A stretch of DNA of 64,000 nucleotides from Marinomonas hwangdonensis (GTDB taxonomy: Bacteria > Pseudomonadota > Gammaproteobacteria > Pseudomonadales > Marinomonadaceae): positions 1-64,000 of the forward strand of contig NZ_RIZG01000003.1 in assembly GCF_003721245.1 (NCBI RefSeq), written 5' to 3'. The stretch's first letter is position 1. Every line of letters begins with the position of its first letter. Positions 31,174 to 43,661 of this stretch are shown one piece after another. The notes under the pieces are model-generated. The model did no database searches, was not told where the DNA came from, and was given only the letters and a program-made list of their open reading frames with translations. Position numbers and translations under genes: made by a program.

Positions 31174-32292
31174 ATGTACGCAAAACTGGAAACACGAACT
31201 TTTCTTGCCATGCTGGTGGGGGTGTCGTTTGCCTTTATATTACTGATGAAACCGTTTTTTGGCCCAATCTTTTGGGCTGTGGCCGTAGCGCTTATTTTCT
31301 TTCCCGTGCAACAAAGGCTGACTCGTCAACTTGGTAACAAGCCCAATATCAATGCGTTAATTACCTTACTCATTTGTATGGTCATTGTTATTATCCCTGT
31401 GCTTGTGCTGGGAGCGGCACTGATCACAGAAGGGATGGGAATCTATCAAAAGATTCAAGATGGTCAAATTCGCCCTGGAGAATACATTGACCAAATAAAT
31501 CGGTCTTTTCCTGCAATACAAACGTTTCTGGCTCAGTTTGATATTAACTTTGGTGAATTAAGAGATCGTGCTGTCAGTGCCTTTTTGGGTGGCAGCCAGT
31601 TCCTCGCCAAACAGGCGCTTGGTGTTGGGCAAAATACCTTTGAATTTTTTCTTAGCTTGGCGTTGATGATCTATTTGGCCTTTTTCTTGATTCGAGATGG
31701 CAGCAAGCTGGTTGATTTGATGATCAAAGCTTTGCCATTGGGGGATGAACGAGAGCGTTTGCTGTTTGCTAAATTTGCCGAGGTTACTCGAGCGACCGTA
31801 AAAGGCAACTTGCTCATAGCTATTATTCAGGGGGCGCTGGGGGGGATTATCTTCTGGGCTTTAGGTATTACAGGCGCTCTATTGTGGGGCGTGGTAATGG
31901 CGATTGTTTCTTTGTTACCTGCTGTCGGAGCCGCCATAGTATGGGTTCCTGTTGCTGTGTATCTTACCGCTGTGGGTGACTTTGTACCGGCGATGATATT
32001 AACCGCTTATGGGGTTTTGGTGATTGGTCTTGCGGATAACATCTTACGACCAATCCTTGTTGGGCGTGATACGAAGTTACCGGATTATTTGGTGCTTTTG
32101 TCTACATTAGGCGGTATTGCTATGTTTGGTATTAATGGTTTTGTTATGGGGCCCTTAGTTGCCGCCTTGTTTATGGCCTTCTGGGGGATTTTTATTCGTG
32201 AATTCGCAGAAGAAGAGCCAAAAGAGGTGGCATCGAGCCCTCTTGATCTAGATGAGATTCATGAAGACGGAAAAAGAGATACCGATAATTAA
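31174..32292 (+). CDS. AI-2E family transporter (PerM/YhhT-like)
   Basis: 372 residues with about eight membrane segments. It has the AI-2E family layout: N-terminal hydrophobic pair, a central soluble part (about 105-165), and the conserved PAVGAAIVWVPVAVYL and DNILRPILVGRDTKLP blocks. Family members include the TqsA AI-2 exporter and sodium/proton antiporters, so the substrate cannot be assigned. The following oxidase gene begins 17 bases after its stop, suggesting an operon. Confidence 0.87.
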   Translation: MYAKLETRTFLAMLVGVSFAFILLMKPFFGPIFWAVAVALIFFPVQQRLTRQLGNKPNINALITLLICMVIVIIPVLVLGAALITEGMGIYQKIQDGQIRPGEYIDQINRSFPAIQTFLAQFDINFGELRDRAVSAFLGGSQFLAKQALGVGQNTFEFFLSLALMIYLAFFLIRDGSKLVDLMIKALPLGDERERLLFAKFAEVTRATVKGNLLIAIIQGALGGIIFWALGITGALLWGVVMAIVSLLPAVGAAIVWVPVAVYLTAVGDFVPAMILTAYGVLVIGLADNILRPILVGRDTKLPDYLVLLSTLGGIAMFGINGFVMGPLVAALFMAFWGIFIREFAEEEPKEVASSPLDLDEIHEDGKRDTDN

Positions 32293-38373: not shown

Positions 38374-39654
38374 ATGTTTGTCAGGTTCTTGCGTCCAAAC
38401 AATCTATCCCAAAAAATGATGCGCGTCATTTTTTCAATTTATATGGTCGTTACCTTGGTCATTACAAGCGTGCAGTTTTTGAGTGAATATTTGAAAACAC
38501 AGGCTGTTATTGTTGGTGAATTGCAACAGTTAGAAGTAACCGTACGCGGTCCTATTTCGACGAGCTTGTGGCAATACGATCAAAACCAGCTTGATGTGAT
38601 CACCGATGGGCTGGTACAAATGCCGATTATTGAAGGTGTGGAGGTGTTTGATAAAAATGCGCAAAATATCATATCGAAAACATTCGATGTCGACTCATCC
38701 GTTCCTTTGTCTATTTTTGATTCAAAATTAGAGTTAAACAGGACGCTAAATGGTGAACGTATTCCCCTTGGCACACTAGTACTCTATTCATCGTCTGGTG
38801 TGGTGTTAGATCGAGTTTGGTTTGGTTTTGCCCTGATTGCTTTTACCGCATTCATAAAGCTGACGATCTTATTTTGGCTGTTTATTTGGGCATTTGATCG
38901 ATACTTAGCCACTCCGTTGAAGGAATTAATGTCGCAAGTAAACGAGGTGCAATTAAGCCAAGGCATTAGTAAACGTATTCATTTATCTAACACAGAAAAT
39001 AACGAGCTTAGCCAGCTTCAAGAACACATGAATAGCATGCTGGCTGCTATGTCCTCTGACAGAAAGCGACTGATAGAAGATGAGCAGGCTAAACGGAGTT
39101 GGTTAGAAGATGCCGTTGCAAAACGCACAGAAGACCTACAAGCTCTTAACAAAAAACTCAAATATCTCGCTACGAGAGATTCTCTGACAAATATATTAAA
39201 TAGAGGAAGCTTTTTTGACGCTGCGCAACAGAGGCTTGCTCTTTCTCAACGTCAAGAATCGACTGTGTCCTTCATCTTGATGGATTTAGATTACTTTAAA
39301 CGTATCAATGACAGTTATGGTCATTTTGTTGGAGACAAGGTACTTATTCACTTCACCCAGACGCTTCAGGGATTTTTAAGAAAAACAGACCTTTTAGGTC
39401 GGGTGGGCGGTGAAGAGTTTGCAATTTTGCTTTTTGATACCAAATTAGACGATGCATCTCAGCTTGCCGAAAAGATATGCCAAGCGATTAGTCATTCTGC
39501 ATTAGAAGTAGAAGGTAACACGATCTCTTATACGGTAAGTCTAGGTGTAGAATCATCCGAACTAAGCGATACATCGATTGATGAACTCTTTAAACGCGCT
39601 GATTTGAAATTGTACGGTGCCAAAGATAAGGGGAGAGATCGTGTCGAAAGTTAA
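38374..39654 (+). CDS. Membrane diguanylate cyclase with periplasmic sensor
   Basis: 426 residues: TM1 (about 15-36), a periplasmic domain (about 37-148, with STSLWQYDQNQLDVITDGL), TM2 (about 150-172), a HAMP-like linker, a short coiled coil and a C-terminal GGDEF domain. The active site is GGEEF and an intact inhibitory I-site RKTD sits five residues upstream, so it should make c-di-GMP with product feedback. The 3' end overlaps the start of a periplasmic binding-protein gene, pointing to a joint signalling pair. Confidence 0.9.
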   Translation: MFVRFLRPNNLSQKMMRVIFSIYMVVTLVITSVQFLSEYLKTQAVIVGELQQLEVTVRGPISTSLWQYDQNQLDVITDGLVQMPIIEGVEVFDKNAQNIISKTFDVDSSVPLSIFDSKLELNRTLNGERIPLGTLVLYSSSGVVLDRVWFGFALIAFTAFIKLTILFWLFIWAFDRYLATPLKELMSQVNEVQLSQGISKRIHLSNTENNELSQLQEHMNSMLAAMSSDRKRLIEDEQAKRSWLEDAVAKRTEDLQALNKKLKYLATRDSLTNILNRGSFFDAAQQRLALSQRQESTVSFILMDLDYFKRINDSYGHFVGDKVLIHFTQTLQGFLRKTDLLGRVGGEEFAILLFDTKLDDASQLAEKICQAISHSALEVEGNTISYTVSLGVESSELSDTSIDELFKRADLKLYGAKDKGRDRVES

Positions 39655-40456
39655 CCGTTTTAGTCTTTTGGCTTTTTTAATGTACGCTTTTGCTGGGATA
39701 GCCGTGCCGAATGCCAGCTATGGAATGACATTAAAAGTATGCTATGACCACTGGCCGCCGATGACGATGTTCCCCATACAAGGTGCGCCAGCGCGCGGCG
39801 TGGTGATCGACATGGTAGAACACATATACTCTTCCAAAGGCTATCAATTGGCATTTTATGAAGTGCCTTTGGCAAGAGGACTTGATATGGTCGCAGAAGG
39901 ACTGTGCGATATGTTGCCAGAATACCTTTATTCAGCCGATTCAGACAGCGGCTTTGTTTATGCGAATGAAGCCACTTTTTCTTATGACTCTGCTTTTGTG
40001 ATTAGAAAAGAGGATGATTGGCGTTATCAAGGCATTCACTCTTTGACAGGTAAGCGAATTGCAACAGGGCCAGGTTGGGATTACAGTTCCATGAGTACGG
40101 AATATCAAAGCCATATTGATGATCCGAAAAACGCTGATTTGATTGAAATAATCGCCGGTCACGATGATGTTGTAGACCGCATATTTAAGATGATTAAAGA
40201 CAATCGCGTCGACCTATACGCCGATAATGACCTCGTTCTTCAGCATGTTCTAAACCAATTAAAATTAGACAAAGACCTTCGAATCGTACGCCCCGGCTTA
40301 GAAAAAAAATTGGTCGAAATACCCATCTTTTCAAAAAAGATTCCCGATGATAAAAGACGAGAACTGATCAACCTCTGGAACCATGGTCGTTTGGCGATAA
40401 AAGGCGAAATAGAGCAAGCCTTTCTCAACAAGTACAAGGTTTCCTTGGGAGAATAG
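39641..40456 (+). CDS. Periplasmic solute-binding protein (family 3-like), probable partner of the diguanylate cyclase
   Basis: 271 residues from GTG 39641. GGGGAGA five bases upstream decides this start, which overlaps the cyclase gene by 14 bases. The signal peptide (VSKVNRFSLLAFLMYAFAG, cleaved near SYG) is followed by LKVCYDHWPPM, GVVIDMVEHIYSSKGYQL and LTGKRIATGPGWDY, as in HisJ/TransSub-like proteins. No transporter genes adjoin, so it more likely feeds a ligand signal to the cyclase sensor than to an importer. Ligand unknown. Confidence 0.83.
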   Translation: MSKVNRFSLLAFLMYAFAGIAVPNASYGMTLKVCYDHWPPMTMFPIQGAPARGVVIDMVEHIYSSKGYQLAFYEVPLARGLDMVAEGLCDMLPEYLYSADSDSGFVYANEATFSYDSAFVIRKEDDWRYQGIHSLTGKRIATGPGWDYSSMSTEYQSHIDDPKNADLIEIIAGHDDVVDRIFKMIKDNRVDLYADNDLVLQHVLNQLKLDKDLRIVRPGLEKKLVEIPIFSKKIPDDKRRELINLWNHGRLAIKGEIEQAFLNKYKVSLGE

Positions 40457-40611: not shown

Positions 40612-41604
40612 ATGCTAAGCAATACAACTGAACGCCAACTTGAGCCGATTGATGCTGTTATCACTTGGGTCGATGGAAACGCTGCAACACATCGCCAGAA
40701 GCGCCAAGAATATATGGCTATTGAGTCGTTACCATTGCATGAAAACGCGTCGAATCCTCATCGCTGGATGTGTAACGATGAAATTTTGTACTGCATCCAA
40801 TCAATCGAAAACCATGCTCCCTGGGTCGGTAAAATTTGGATTGTGGTTGATGAGGAAGGGCCCGATTTATCCAGTCTCTCAGAAAGCATTAGGGCTAAGG
40901 TACATCTCGCCTATCACTCGGAAATCTTTGATGGTTACACTCAGGTTTTACCTACGTTTAACTCTTTGGCTATTGAAAGCATGCTGTGGCGGATTGAGGG
41001 ACTGAGTGAACGATTCATGTACTTCAATGATGATGTATTCGTGACTGCACCTCTGGCCCCGACAGATATTTTTGATGGGGTAATGCCTATTTTGCGCGGT
41101 AAATGGGTGGACTACAGCGAGGTGCTCAACAATGACGAAATGCGAGATGACCCTGCGAAGTTTCACCATTATATGCAGATAAATGCCGCCCAAATTATGG
41201 GGTTTTCCTCTACAGAATTGTTTTCCTCTGCCCATGTTGTGCACCCCTTTCGGCGCTCAAAAATGGCTGAGTTGTTTGCTCGGTATCCCGAATACTTCCT
41301 TAGCAACATAAAGCACAGGTTTCGTAACTTGGAGCAATTTCTTCCTCAGGGGCTGCATAATCATGCATGTATCCGCAACGAAGAGGCTAAGCTCAGTACG
41401 CAAAAAGACCACCTTCACATTACCAGTGGACAAGGAAAGGGACAGCCACCCGCTGACACCCTAGCGCTGCTGACCAGAGCGACAGATCCTGACATCAAGT
41501 TTCTCTGTGTGAATGACCTCCCACAACTGGTGGAAATCATTCCTAATGCAGCAGACTGGATAGCCAAAGCGATAGGCGGATTTCCGAGGTCTGTCGCACA
41601 TTAA
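40612..41604 (+). CDS. Stealth-type sugar-phosphate transferase
   Basis: 330 residues with the Stealth conserved regions in order: CR1 IDAVITWVDGN (about 12-22), CR2 CNDEILYCIQSIENHAPWVGKIWIVVD (about 54-80), CR3 RFMYFNDDVFV (about 137-147) and a later HR/NLEQF part. Family members transfer hexose-1-phosphate in capsule or exopolysaccharide synthesis (for example CpsY or GlcNAc-1-phosphotransferase relatives). It stands alone, without other capsule genes, next to c-di-GMP genes. No signal peptide; cytosolic. Confidence 0.85.
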   Translation: MLSNTTERQLEPIDAVITWVDGNAATHRQKRQEYMAIESLPLHENASNPHRWMCNDEILYCIQSIENHAPWVGKIWIVVDEEGPDLSSLSESIRAKVHLAYHSEIFDGYTQVLPTFNSLAIESMLWRIEGLSERFMYFNDDVFVTAPLAPTDIFDGVMPILRGKWVDYSEVLNNDEMRDDPAKFHHYMQINAAQIMGFSSTELFSSAHVVHPFRRSKMAELFARYPEYFLSNIKHRFRNLEQFLPQGLHNHACIRNEEAKLSTQKDHLHITSGQGKGQPPADTLALLTRATDPDIKFLCVNDLPQLVEIIPNAADWIAKAIGGFPRSVAH

Positions 41605-41645: not shown

Positions 41646-43661
41646 TTAACTAAAGGGCAGAGTAGTGTTTTCTAATAAAACGGCTTCTATGTCCTTTACG
41701 TCCATTGGCTTGGCGAAATAATAACCTTGTCCACAGAAACAGCCCATCTTTATCAGGATGTCGACCTGAGCTTTTGTTTCAATGCCTTCGGCGATGACTT
41801 GGCAGTTTAATGGTTCGGCAAGAGCAATCGCGGTGGAAACAATGGCGCGCTTTTTAGGGTCATGCTCAAGGTTATCGATAAAGGACCGATCAATCTTGAT
41901 GTGATTGACGTTCAAGTTACTCAAATACGAAAGAGAGCTCATCCCCGTTCCAAAATCATCGATTGCCAATTTTATGCCCGCATTTCTAAAATCAGTGAGT
42001 TTGCTCGCAATATAATCGATATTTACGCTGGTAGCGGATTCAATCAGTTCTATTTCCAGTTGACTGGGTGCTACCTTGTGCTGCTCTAGACTGGTCAGTG
42101 TAAAGCTCAGTAGTTCAGGGTCGAGTAGATTAAACGGCGACAAATTAATGGCAACGGGCGTTAAAATGCCTTGTTGTTGCCAGACCGCCATTTGCTCAAT
42201 AGCAGCGAGAATGATGTACCTTCCGAACTCTTGAACGCGTCCCCCTTGCTCTATCAAGTCAACAAAATAAGCCGGTGATAACTGGCCATCGGTTGGATGG
42301 TACCAGCGCGCTAATGCTTCAACTCCAATCACCTGGCCATTCTGCAACATTACCTTGGGTTGATAGTATAATTTAATCTGCTTTTGAGATAAGGCGTTAT
42401 CCAGATCGGCGCGCAGTTTCAAGCGCTGCTGTCCATTATTTGGACTAACTTCACTGAACATGCTCCAACCACAGCGCTTTTGTTTGGCCTCATACATCGC
42501 CATGTCCGCGTAGATGATTAAGGATTCTGCATCCTGTGCATGACTTGGGTAGTGTGAAAAGCCAACACTGGCCCCTGTATTGATAAAAAAATCGTTAATA
42601 GTGATCGGTTCGTTACAGACAATAACAAGTTGAGCTGCGAGTGTTTCGGCTTCTTTTGCCGACATCTCAGGTGCCCAGATAATAAATTCGTCACCACCCG
42701 TTCGGATCAGAGTTTGAGAAGGAGCTAATATGTCGTTTAATTTTTGCGCGACACTGATGAGTAAAAAATCGCCTGCGGCATGGCCAAATGCATCATTTAC
42801 TTCTTTGAATTTATCTAAATCGATGACGAATAAGCAGCCTTCTTTGACTGGCGTGCTCTTCAATTTTGCGGGTTTACGTTGTTCAGATTGAGAGTGGTCA
42901 GTAATGGAAAGGCGCATTAAATCAGCTAAAAAAAGTCGGTTTGGCAGACCCGTCAGCGAATCATGAGTGGCTAGATGTGCCAACGCATCGTTTTTATCCT
43001 GAACACGCTTGTTCATCCATGACGATAAGGTAAGGGCAAACCAAGTAGCGAGCCAAAAGACAATCACTGACGTAATAGTGAGACGTTTCATCACAAAATC
43101 CAGTGTGTCATCAAGGCTTCTAGCCGTTTTTACCAGTAAAACTTGATAGTCACTCTCGTCAACGATGTACCATATGAATTGAGTTTCACCGACTTTTTTT
43201 ACGCCATTCTGCATAGCGCTTAATGGCATGTTTTCTAGACTGAGTGACAACATTGTTGTTAACGTTTCTATTTGAACTGGGCTGAATTGATGACTGATTG
43301 CCAAGTTTAACCGAGGCCCAGTTATTTTCAGGTACAGCTCATCCGTATGTGAATGATCGTTAAAATACACTCTGTTAACTAAGTCAGATACCTTATCTTT
43401 AAGTGCTTTGCTCTCAAGAGCGGTAACATTTGACAGAGAAGTAGCTGCCACTCTGTTTTTGTCATTGATAATGAGTTCACTATGAATAAGCATGGCTTGC
43501 TTATGAAGTGACTCCAGTTCGGTTTTAATGCCAAGGTCGGCAGCCAATCGGTAAGACACAACCACATAAACAATAGAAACAGAAAGGGCTAAAATGAGGC
43601 AAATAGATATCAGCTTTAAGCGAAAGGATTTGTCTTTTTGCAATTCTAAAAAAGAAGCCAT
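41646..43661 (-). CDS. GGDEF-EAL membrane protein
   Basis: 671 residues: TM1 (about 14-34), a periplasmic region (about 35-185), TM2 (about 188-210), GGDEF (about 230-395, RTGGDEF intact, no I-site RxxD at the usual place) and EAL (about 410-660, GVEALARWYHP and DDFGTGMSSLSYL intact). It can in principle both make and degrade c-di-GMP; the intact EAL residues favour phosphodiesterase activity. It converges with the Stealth gene. Periplasmic ligand unknown. Confidence 0.9.
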   Translation of the reverse strand: MASFLELQKDKSFRLKLISICLILALSVSIVYVVVSYRLAADLGIKTELESLHKQAMLIHSELIINDKNRVAATSLSNVTALESKALKDKVSDLVNRVYFNDHSHTDELYLKITGPRLNLAISHQFSPVQIETLTTMLSLSLENMPLSAMQNGVKKVGETQFIWYIVDESDYQVLLVKTARSLDDTLDFVMKRLTITSVIVFWLATWFALTLSSWMNKRVQDKNDALAHLATHDSLTGLPNRLFLADLMRLSITDHSQSEQRKPAKLKSTPVKEGCLFVIDLDKFKEVNDAFGHAAGDFLLISVAQKLNDILAPSQTLIRTGGDEFIIWAPEMSAKEAETLAAQLVIVCNEPITINDFFINTGASVGFSHYPSHAQDAESLIIYADMAMYEAKQKRCGWSMFSEVSPNNGQQRLKLRADLDNALSQKQIKLYYQPKVMLQNGQVIGVEALARWYHPTDGQLSPAYFVDLIEQGGRVQEFGRYIILAAIEQMAVWQQQGILTPVAINLSPFNLLDPELLSFTLTSLEQHKVAPSQLEIELIESATSVNIDYIASKLTDFRNAGIKLAIDDFGTGMSSLSYLSNLNVNHIKIDRSFIDNLEHDPKKRAIVSTAIALAEPLNCQVIAEGIETKAQVDILIKMGCFCGQGYYFAKPMDVKDIEAVLLENTTLPFS

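Follow-up and report, generated by a model that had tools for sequence, protein, structure and literature searches.

A diguanylate cyclase and a periplasmic binding protein (hereafter SBP), encoded by two overlapping genes of Marinomonas hwangdonensis, probably form one two-protein sensor, in which the SBP would sense a ligand, dock on the CHASE5 domain of the cyclase and set cyclase activity. The two genes lie in a stretch of 64,000 nucleotides that was analysed as a whole and is called the window here. The partnership of cyclase and SBP is strongly supported. At the level of sequence, the overlap of the genes, a ribosome site of the SBP's own within the cyclase gene and the joint inheritance of both genes are established, and we infer physical binding between SBP and CHASE5, together with the ligand and the sign of control. 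Beyond this pair, we consider it fairly likely that CHASE5 generally docks next-door exported SBPs on kinases, cyclases and phosphodiesterases, that SBP families are swapped as detectors, and that the present pair is a mobile c-di-GMP version of this arrangement.

The first gene (38374..39654, + strand) encodes a membrane diguanylate cyclase of 426 aa, as judged from its translation, Pfam and an AF2 model. Its domains are arranged in the order TM1, CHASE5, TM2, HAMP-like/coiled linker and GGDEF, with membrane helices read from the sequence and a weak HAMP match in Pfam. The periplasmic CHASE5 sensor domain (PF17149; aa 49-139, 38518..38790, + strand) was found above the Pfam cut-off (33.1 bits vs 27, E 5.9e-8) and was also matched by a custom CHASE5 profile (E 5.6e-11). 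The GGDEF catalytic domain (aa 266-423, 39169..39642, + strand) scored 147.9 bits against a cut-off of 23.8 (E 2.8e-43) and identifies the protein as a diguanylate cyclase. It contains a GGEEF signature (aa 345-349, 39406-39420, + strand), which is invariant in 15/15 aligned sequences, and an inhibitory-site-like RKTD motif was read from the alignment at aa 336-339. A Pfam scan of the 426 aa returned no EAL match, so that the protein is not a GGDEF-EAL receptor of the NspS-MbaA type. The AF2 model, based on 15 sequences (pLDDT 78.3), presents a long helix, a short helix, four strands and a second long helix; the 50 cyclase-fold matches listed were driven by GGDEF and are therefore uninformative on the fold of CHASE5. 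The 3.46-Mb genome of M. hwangdonensis gave 45 GGDEF matches at E <=1e-10, indicating a rich c-di-GMP network.

The second gene (39641..40456, + strand) encodes a periplasmic type II SBP of 271 aa, assigned by Pfam, AF2 and structure comparison. Its N-terminus (approximately aa 1-28), read from the sequence, is hydrophobic and signal-peptide-like and has no lipobox. Against Pfam SBP_bac_3 (PF00497) the protein scored 19.9 bits (E 6.4e-4), under the cut-off of 26.4, and it is therefore called SBP_bac_3-like. The AF2 model (pLDDT 91.2) is a confident two-lobed SBP fold that aligns with 6h30_A (Z 22.0, rmsd 2.9, 221 aligned) and 4kpt_A (Z 21.9, rmsd 2.9, 219 aligned), and Foldseek returned 1367 matches at E <=0.001, which places it in the type II periplasmic binding protein fold. 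The SBP alignment profile matched amino-acid SBPs in the PDB (best E 3.2e-40); a PDB sequence search with the SBP sequence alone gave no match.

Across 25 ortholog pairs, 84 SBP positions are invariant, including W38, R79, W146, Y148 and D195, which fold and alignment would place in or near the cleft; R79 is also near-invariant across 40 aligned SBPs. In a distant profile alignment with an ancestral arginine-binding protein, an Arg and an Asp position, which we take to hold the alpha-carboxylate and the alpha-amino group, respectively, fall on the variable residue 102 and on N196 of the SBP. Judged by this alignment, the residues that hold alpha-amino acids may have been lost from the cleft, and the ligand may, very tentatively, be something other than a standard alpha-amino acid. 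Two cysteines, C34 (39740-39742) and C89 (39905-39907), are invariant in the 25 ortholog pairs and possibly form a disulfide or a redox switch; the two are not retained together in the other aligned CHASE5-linked SBPs, in which single cysteines occur.

According to the original prediction, a GTG start with a ribosome site inside the 3' end of the cyclase gene couples the two genes, and this arrangement was recovered and found to be conserved beyond chance. The genes overlap by 14 bp, including the SBP GTG start (39641..39654, + strand), and a Shine-Dalgarno-like AAGGGGAGA (39628..39636, + strand), recognised by sequence, codon rarity and conservation, lies within the cyclase Lys-Gly-Arg codons near the end of GGDEF, 4 nt ahead of the GTG. 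The SBP reading frame has an earlier in-frame GTG at 39617; 39641 is the start retained in relatives. Across 19 genes of the window, AAG, GGG and AGA make up 0.246, 0.098 and 0.058 of the codons of their own residues, which gives a chance of about 0.0014 for the AAG-GGG-AGA triple. Among the 12 same-genus loci with both genes, window counted, AGA is kept in nine and GGG in ten, and an ATG or GTG stands at exactly -14 in 11 (one read from the junction). The same spacing was found in 22 of the 24 intact loci from named genomes (three read from the junction; seven loci are common to both sets), where the start is mostly GTG and in four loci ATG, at a constant position. End codons were examined at 30 of the 45 GGDEF places in the genome; the end motif was readable in 16 of these 30, two with GGG and three with AGA, and only the window cyclase had both. 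We read the rare codons and the fixed -14 start as selection for coupled translation. A promoter scan at the pair gave fewer sites than in shuffles, and a terminator scan found none on the + strand behind the SBP gene.

Co-occurrence of the two genes in other genomes had been proposed as a check, and the outcome was favourable: many genera have retained the sequence of the pair, its gene order and the exact overlap. Among 143 genomes searched, window's counted, the SBP ortholog (64-74% identity) was identified, apart from the window's own, in 12 genomes, each of the same genus, and 11 of these 12 also contain the sensor ortholog. In the 48 genomes G000-G047, of which listed ones are marked as the same genus and unlisted ones were taken to be, the SBP ortholog is present in 13, and 12 of these 13, but no other genome, have the sensor ortholog (Fisher 1.9e-10). 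A profile of 12 SBP orthologs was then used to search 84,980 species genomes and yielded 28 loci, with an intact cyclase directly ahead of the SBP gene in 24. Hosts of the intact pairs include Marinomonas, Pseudomonas, Methylophaga, Neptunomonas, Colwellia, Gilvimarinus, Psychrosphaera, Paraglaciecola, Saccharospirillum, Pseudohongiella, a MAG named Rhodobacteraceae and the alphaproteobacterium Thalassospira. The SBP match is partial only in L287, and the cyclase frame is broken in L282, with an open SBP frame, and in L286, with a short one. In Marinomonas fungiae (G040, L047 = L271), the one same-genus genome with the SBP ortholog but not the sensor ortholog, the cyclase lacks approximately aa 22-300 and the SBP frame is open.

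SBP identity to the window's protein is 66% in a Pseudomonas and 64% in Marinomonas phaeophyticola, and host kinship is thus not closely tracked. The conserved pair, its differing flanks and this pattern of identity together look like a mobile two-gene cassette. A distant pair in reverse order (SBP first, CHASE5-GGDEF second) was found in G003, G031, G040 and G042 of the same genus; its sensor is about 30% identical to that of the window cyclase, and its CHASE5 in L049 scored 24.8 bits, just below the cut-off of 27. The occurrence of the same two protein kinds in two gene orders argues for a functional link. The cyclase remnant of M. fungiae (L047:6573-7024) has a large internal deletion and a frame change and is followed by TRAP transporter genes, and this species, G040, keeps the distant reverse-order pair.

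Cyclase and SBP distances were found to correlate across the 25 ortholog pairs (Mantel r 0.868, reached in 0/5000 permutations) and across 54 sensor-SBP pairs (Mantel r 0.817, against at most 0.24 in 2000 shuffles). L139, L142, six same-genus pairs and all loci lacking a profile match were dropped from the latter set. Swapping the SBPs between two pairs of one genome lowered r in 14/14 genomes, and among 8000 random within-genome exchange patterns none exceeded the true pairing and one equalled it, presumably the true pairing itself. Since adjacent genes are co-inherited by linkage, which alone can give such r, the correlation supports co-inheritance more than contact and is by itself no proof of the latter.

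To place the pair among other CHASE5 receptors, 369 gammaproteobacterial genomes were surveyed, 36 of which contain CHASE5. Three of the 53 CHASE5 places are in the window's genome, and 49 of the other 50 were analysed, one near a contig end being omitted. A first SBP profile, made from 26 SBPs similar to the window's and none from the 49-locus sample, identified an SBP gene adjoining 38 of the 49 class CHASE5 receptor genes, which mostly encode kinases. The frames of these 38 neighbours overlap the receptor gene or are separated from it by a gap of at most 301 bp, and 35 lie upstream on the same strand. A follow-up raised the class count to 42/49 by adding L125 (Peripla_BP_4) and L133 (Phosphonate-bd) from Pfam, and L126 (99.9%) and L110 (92.7%) from hhalign. 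Seven of the 49 class loci are without an SBP, including L122, whose upstream side ends at a contig end. Nine extra loci (L135-L143) are outside the class sample and were excluded from the 49. The outputs of 52 receptors, 51 with CHASE5, comprise HisKA (38), GGDEF (10), EAL (8) and MCPsignal (1), the last belonging to L142, the one receptor of the 52 that is not a CHASE5 protein.

For comparison with other sensor types, loci with equal 1.5-kb flanks were searched with the same profile, either strand being counted. An SBP was present in 24/30 CHASE5 class loci, in 13/29 CHASE5 loci sampled phylum-wide (L144-L172, the best 29 of a longer list), and in 0/27 CHASE8 and 0/30 dCache_1 loci (0/57), giving Fisher values of 3.5e-16 for the class and 7.8e-8 for the phylum against the CHASE8 and dCache_1 loci. 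A second profile, partly trained on class neighbours and therefore circular there, returned the same 24/30, 13/29, 0/27 and 0/30. Besides the 13/29, the phylum sample contains L171 with Peripla_BP_6 and L151 with a weak ABC_sub_bind match, and the SBP families beside CHASE5 other than that of the profile are Peripla_BP_4, Phosphonate-bd, Peripla_BP_6 and, weakly, ABC_sub_bind. Non-SBP neighbours recur in the same sample as well, such as SieB and epimerase genes at three loci each. The neighbours of L154 and L159 were rejected as SBPs because Pfam matched neither of them and hhalign gave L159 a probability of 4%, and that of L150 because it matched no SBP family.

When Pfam alone was used and any SBP family counted, SBPs were found in 10/50 upstream neighbour ORFs of CHASE5 (29 loci; 50 of the 53 neighbour ORFs were aligned and scanned), in at least 6/54 CHASE8 neighbour ORFs (27 loci) and in at least 2/47 dCache_1 ORFs (25 loci, the best 25 of 57 families). 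The CHASE8 neighbours comprise Phosphonate-bd (5/54), ABC_sub_bind (1/54) and the YfiR-like DUF4154 (13/54, 27 loci), and the dCache_1 ones, within the best 25 of 57 families, one Phosphonate-bd and one SBP_bac_11. SBP neighbours are therefore not unique to CHASE5, and CHASE8 apparently has its own partners. The Phosphonate-bd ORFs beside CHASE8 receptors (L173-L199) suggest PhnD-type partners for some of these.

In the mechanism that we propose, translation of the SBP would be coupled to that of the cyclase, and the SBP would be exported, bind a small ligand in its cleft and close. Either its open or its closed form would dock on the cyclase dimer at the small CHASE5 domain, and the resulting movement of TM2 and of the HAMP-like linker would turn c-di-GMP synthesis on or off. 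For CHASE5 itself, protein docking is the probable role rather than ligand binding. In the original prediction the cyclase sensor probably receives a ligand state from the SBP, a step that we likewise infer, and its interpretation of the pair is well supported overall. Several observations weigh against the mechanism: the cyclase is broken beside an SBP frame in M. fungiae, L282 and L286, seven class loci show no SBP, the phylum-wide share is lower (13/29), transport proteins lie near some copies, and two Pseudomonas aeruginosa kinases did not bind the SBPs encoded near them (PMC11113362).

A different kind of control is exemplified by YfiN, which is controlled by YfiR. YfiR-YfiN couples (CHASE8 cyclases) resemble the present pair in having a small periplasmic sensor domain and a partner encoded beside it, and the link between YfiR and CHASE8 was recovered here; they differ in that the YfiR/HmsC-like partner is not an SBP and the domain is CHASE8, not CHASE5. 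By analogy, a ligand-free SBP-fold protein might restrain the cyclase and release it on a redox or envelope signal, perhaps via C34 and C89. We consider such repression unlikely. The two cysteines are invariant in the 25 ortholog pairs, which favours it, but as a pair they are absent from the other aligned CHASE5-linked SBPs, where single ones occur; the canonical amino-acid contacts look lost, but there are 84 invariant positions, some of which would lie in or near the cleft; and CHASE8 receptors do pair with YfiR-like proteins, but neither CHASE8 nor DUF4154 (YfiR) appears among the Pfam matches of the present pair up to E 1. The several SBP families beside CHASE5 also suit a diversity of ligands.

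Folds of the SBP_bac_3 kind mostly serve importers, and the SBP could instead feed an unlinked ABC importer, with adjacency reflecting shared regulation by the same nutrient and no contact with the cyclase. This appears very improbable to us. The original prediction had noted that no transporter is nearby, and Pfam indeed detected no ABC or TRAP importer component among 14 flanking window proteins (28909-54322, a subset of the genes), which include an AI-2E family permease at 31174-32292. In 3-kb flanks, considering frames of at least 130 aa, no further gene family is common across genera except frames shadowing the pair, and the neighbour of a receptor is predicted by its sensor type. A few copies of the pair do have transport proteins nearby: among 10 flanking proteins at 9 loci, some of them picked for their transport-like looks, TRAP was found in M. 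fungiae, DctP in Thalassospira and SBP_bac_8 in Gilvimarinus. Moreover, SBPs near kinases can be functionally unlinked, as the accessible text of one report describes for two Pseudomonas aeruginosa kinases that showed no interaction with the SBPs encoded near them (PMC11113362); a review cited in that text counts 10 of 11 characterised SBP-kinase couples as encoded by neighbouring genes. In longer stretches from the same genus, Stealth-type and GGDEF-EAL genes recur in 8/13 loci and others in at most five. In the window, the Stealth-type gene (Stealth_CR2 in Pfam; 40612-41604, + strand) follows the pair, and the GGDEF-EAL gene (41646-43661, - strand) is located behind it. Short gene overlaps are common in bacteria, but a chance overlap retained by vertical descent only has next to no probability and is largely refuted by the identical 14-bp junction in distant orders, the differing flanks and the related pair in reversed order; chance adjacency was likewise rejected, as junction and order are the same across genera with different flanks.

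The reading of cyclase and SBP as one sensor can be compared with several described systems, and SBP-driven c-di-GMP receptors as such are already known (NspS-MbaA, ScrB-ScrC). NspS-MbaA of Vibrio cholerae and Sinorhizobium meliloti likewise combines a periplasmic SBP with a c-di-GMP receptor encoded by overlapping genes; according to the accessible text of the reports, the overlap is 3, 13 or 16 bp in most hosts and receptor activity is set by SBP occupancy (PMC9993111, PMC8967002). In that system the SBP gene comes first and encodes a PotD-like protein, and MbaA, whose periplasmic portion measures about 230 aa, carries GGDEF and EAL in tandem. In the window pair the SBP is second and SBP_bac_3-like, and the cyclase, with a CHASE5 portion of about 110 aa, has a GGDEF domain but no EAL. 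ScrB-ScrC of Vibrio parahaemolyticus is described, in the accessible part of its source, as a periplasmic signal-binding protein that switches a c-di-GMP enzyme encoded in its own operon (PMC10269520); it differs in that the operon includes the signal synthase ScrA and ScrC is bifunctional. SBP-type domains also feed a c-di-GMP enzyme in CdgH and RmcA, where, in the text available from the two reports, the SBP domain is built into the enzyme (PMC5431781, PMC8846402). In IsmP-ImcA a CHASE-type domain takes part in protein-protein control of a cyclase, but CHASE4 binds its ligand, iron, by itself, and the accessible text of the source mentions no SBP (PMC10904736).

In a literature search that took in few subscription papers, the matches listed contained no title on CHASE5 in bacterial signalling, and nothing joining CHASE5 with a diguanylate cyclase was found within the same scope. 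If true, the present reading would provide a function for CHASE5, for which these searches found neither a function nor an assigned ligand. For most membrane receptors the signal has yet to be identified, and one reason given in the accessible text of one source is that the ligand site may reside in an SBP (PMC11113362). Should CHASE5 prove a marker of receptors driven by SBPs, the search for the ligand of an orphan kinase or cyclase could turn to the small soluble protein encoded next door, and such SBPs are easy to purify and screen. The broader link between CHASE5 and SBPs is thus a point of specialist interest beyond the single pair, and the window pair, whose overlap is constant even between distant hosts, offers a compact system for testing it.

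Other receptors beside SBP genes were recorded in the course of the survey. The second CHASE5 receptor in the window's genome is a hybrid histidine kinase (L130:2502-5776, - strand; G000:C19 near 232 kb), with an SBP_bac_3 gene immediately upstream and overlapping open frames; a further CHASE5 match, under the cut-off, is a GGDEF-EAL protein (L134) without an adjoining SBP. The chemoreceptor of L142/L018 was rejected as a CHASE5 protein, as neither Pfam (up to E 0.5) nor the custom CHASE5 profile matched it. This HAMP-MCPsignal chemoreceptor (L142:4084-6372, - strand) has a short sensor and abuts an SBP_bac_3 gene, and may be an SBP-driven chemoreceptor.
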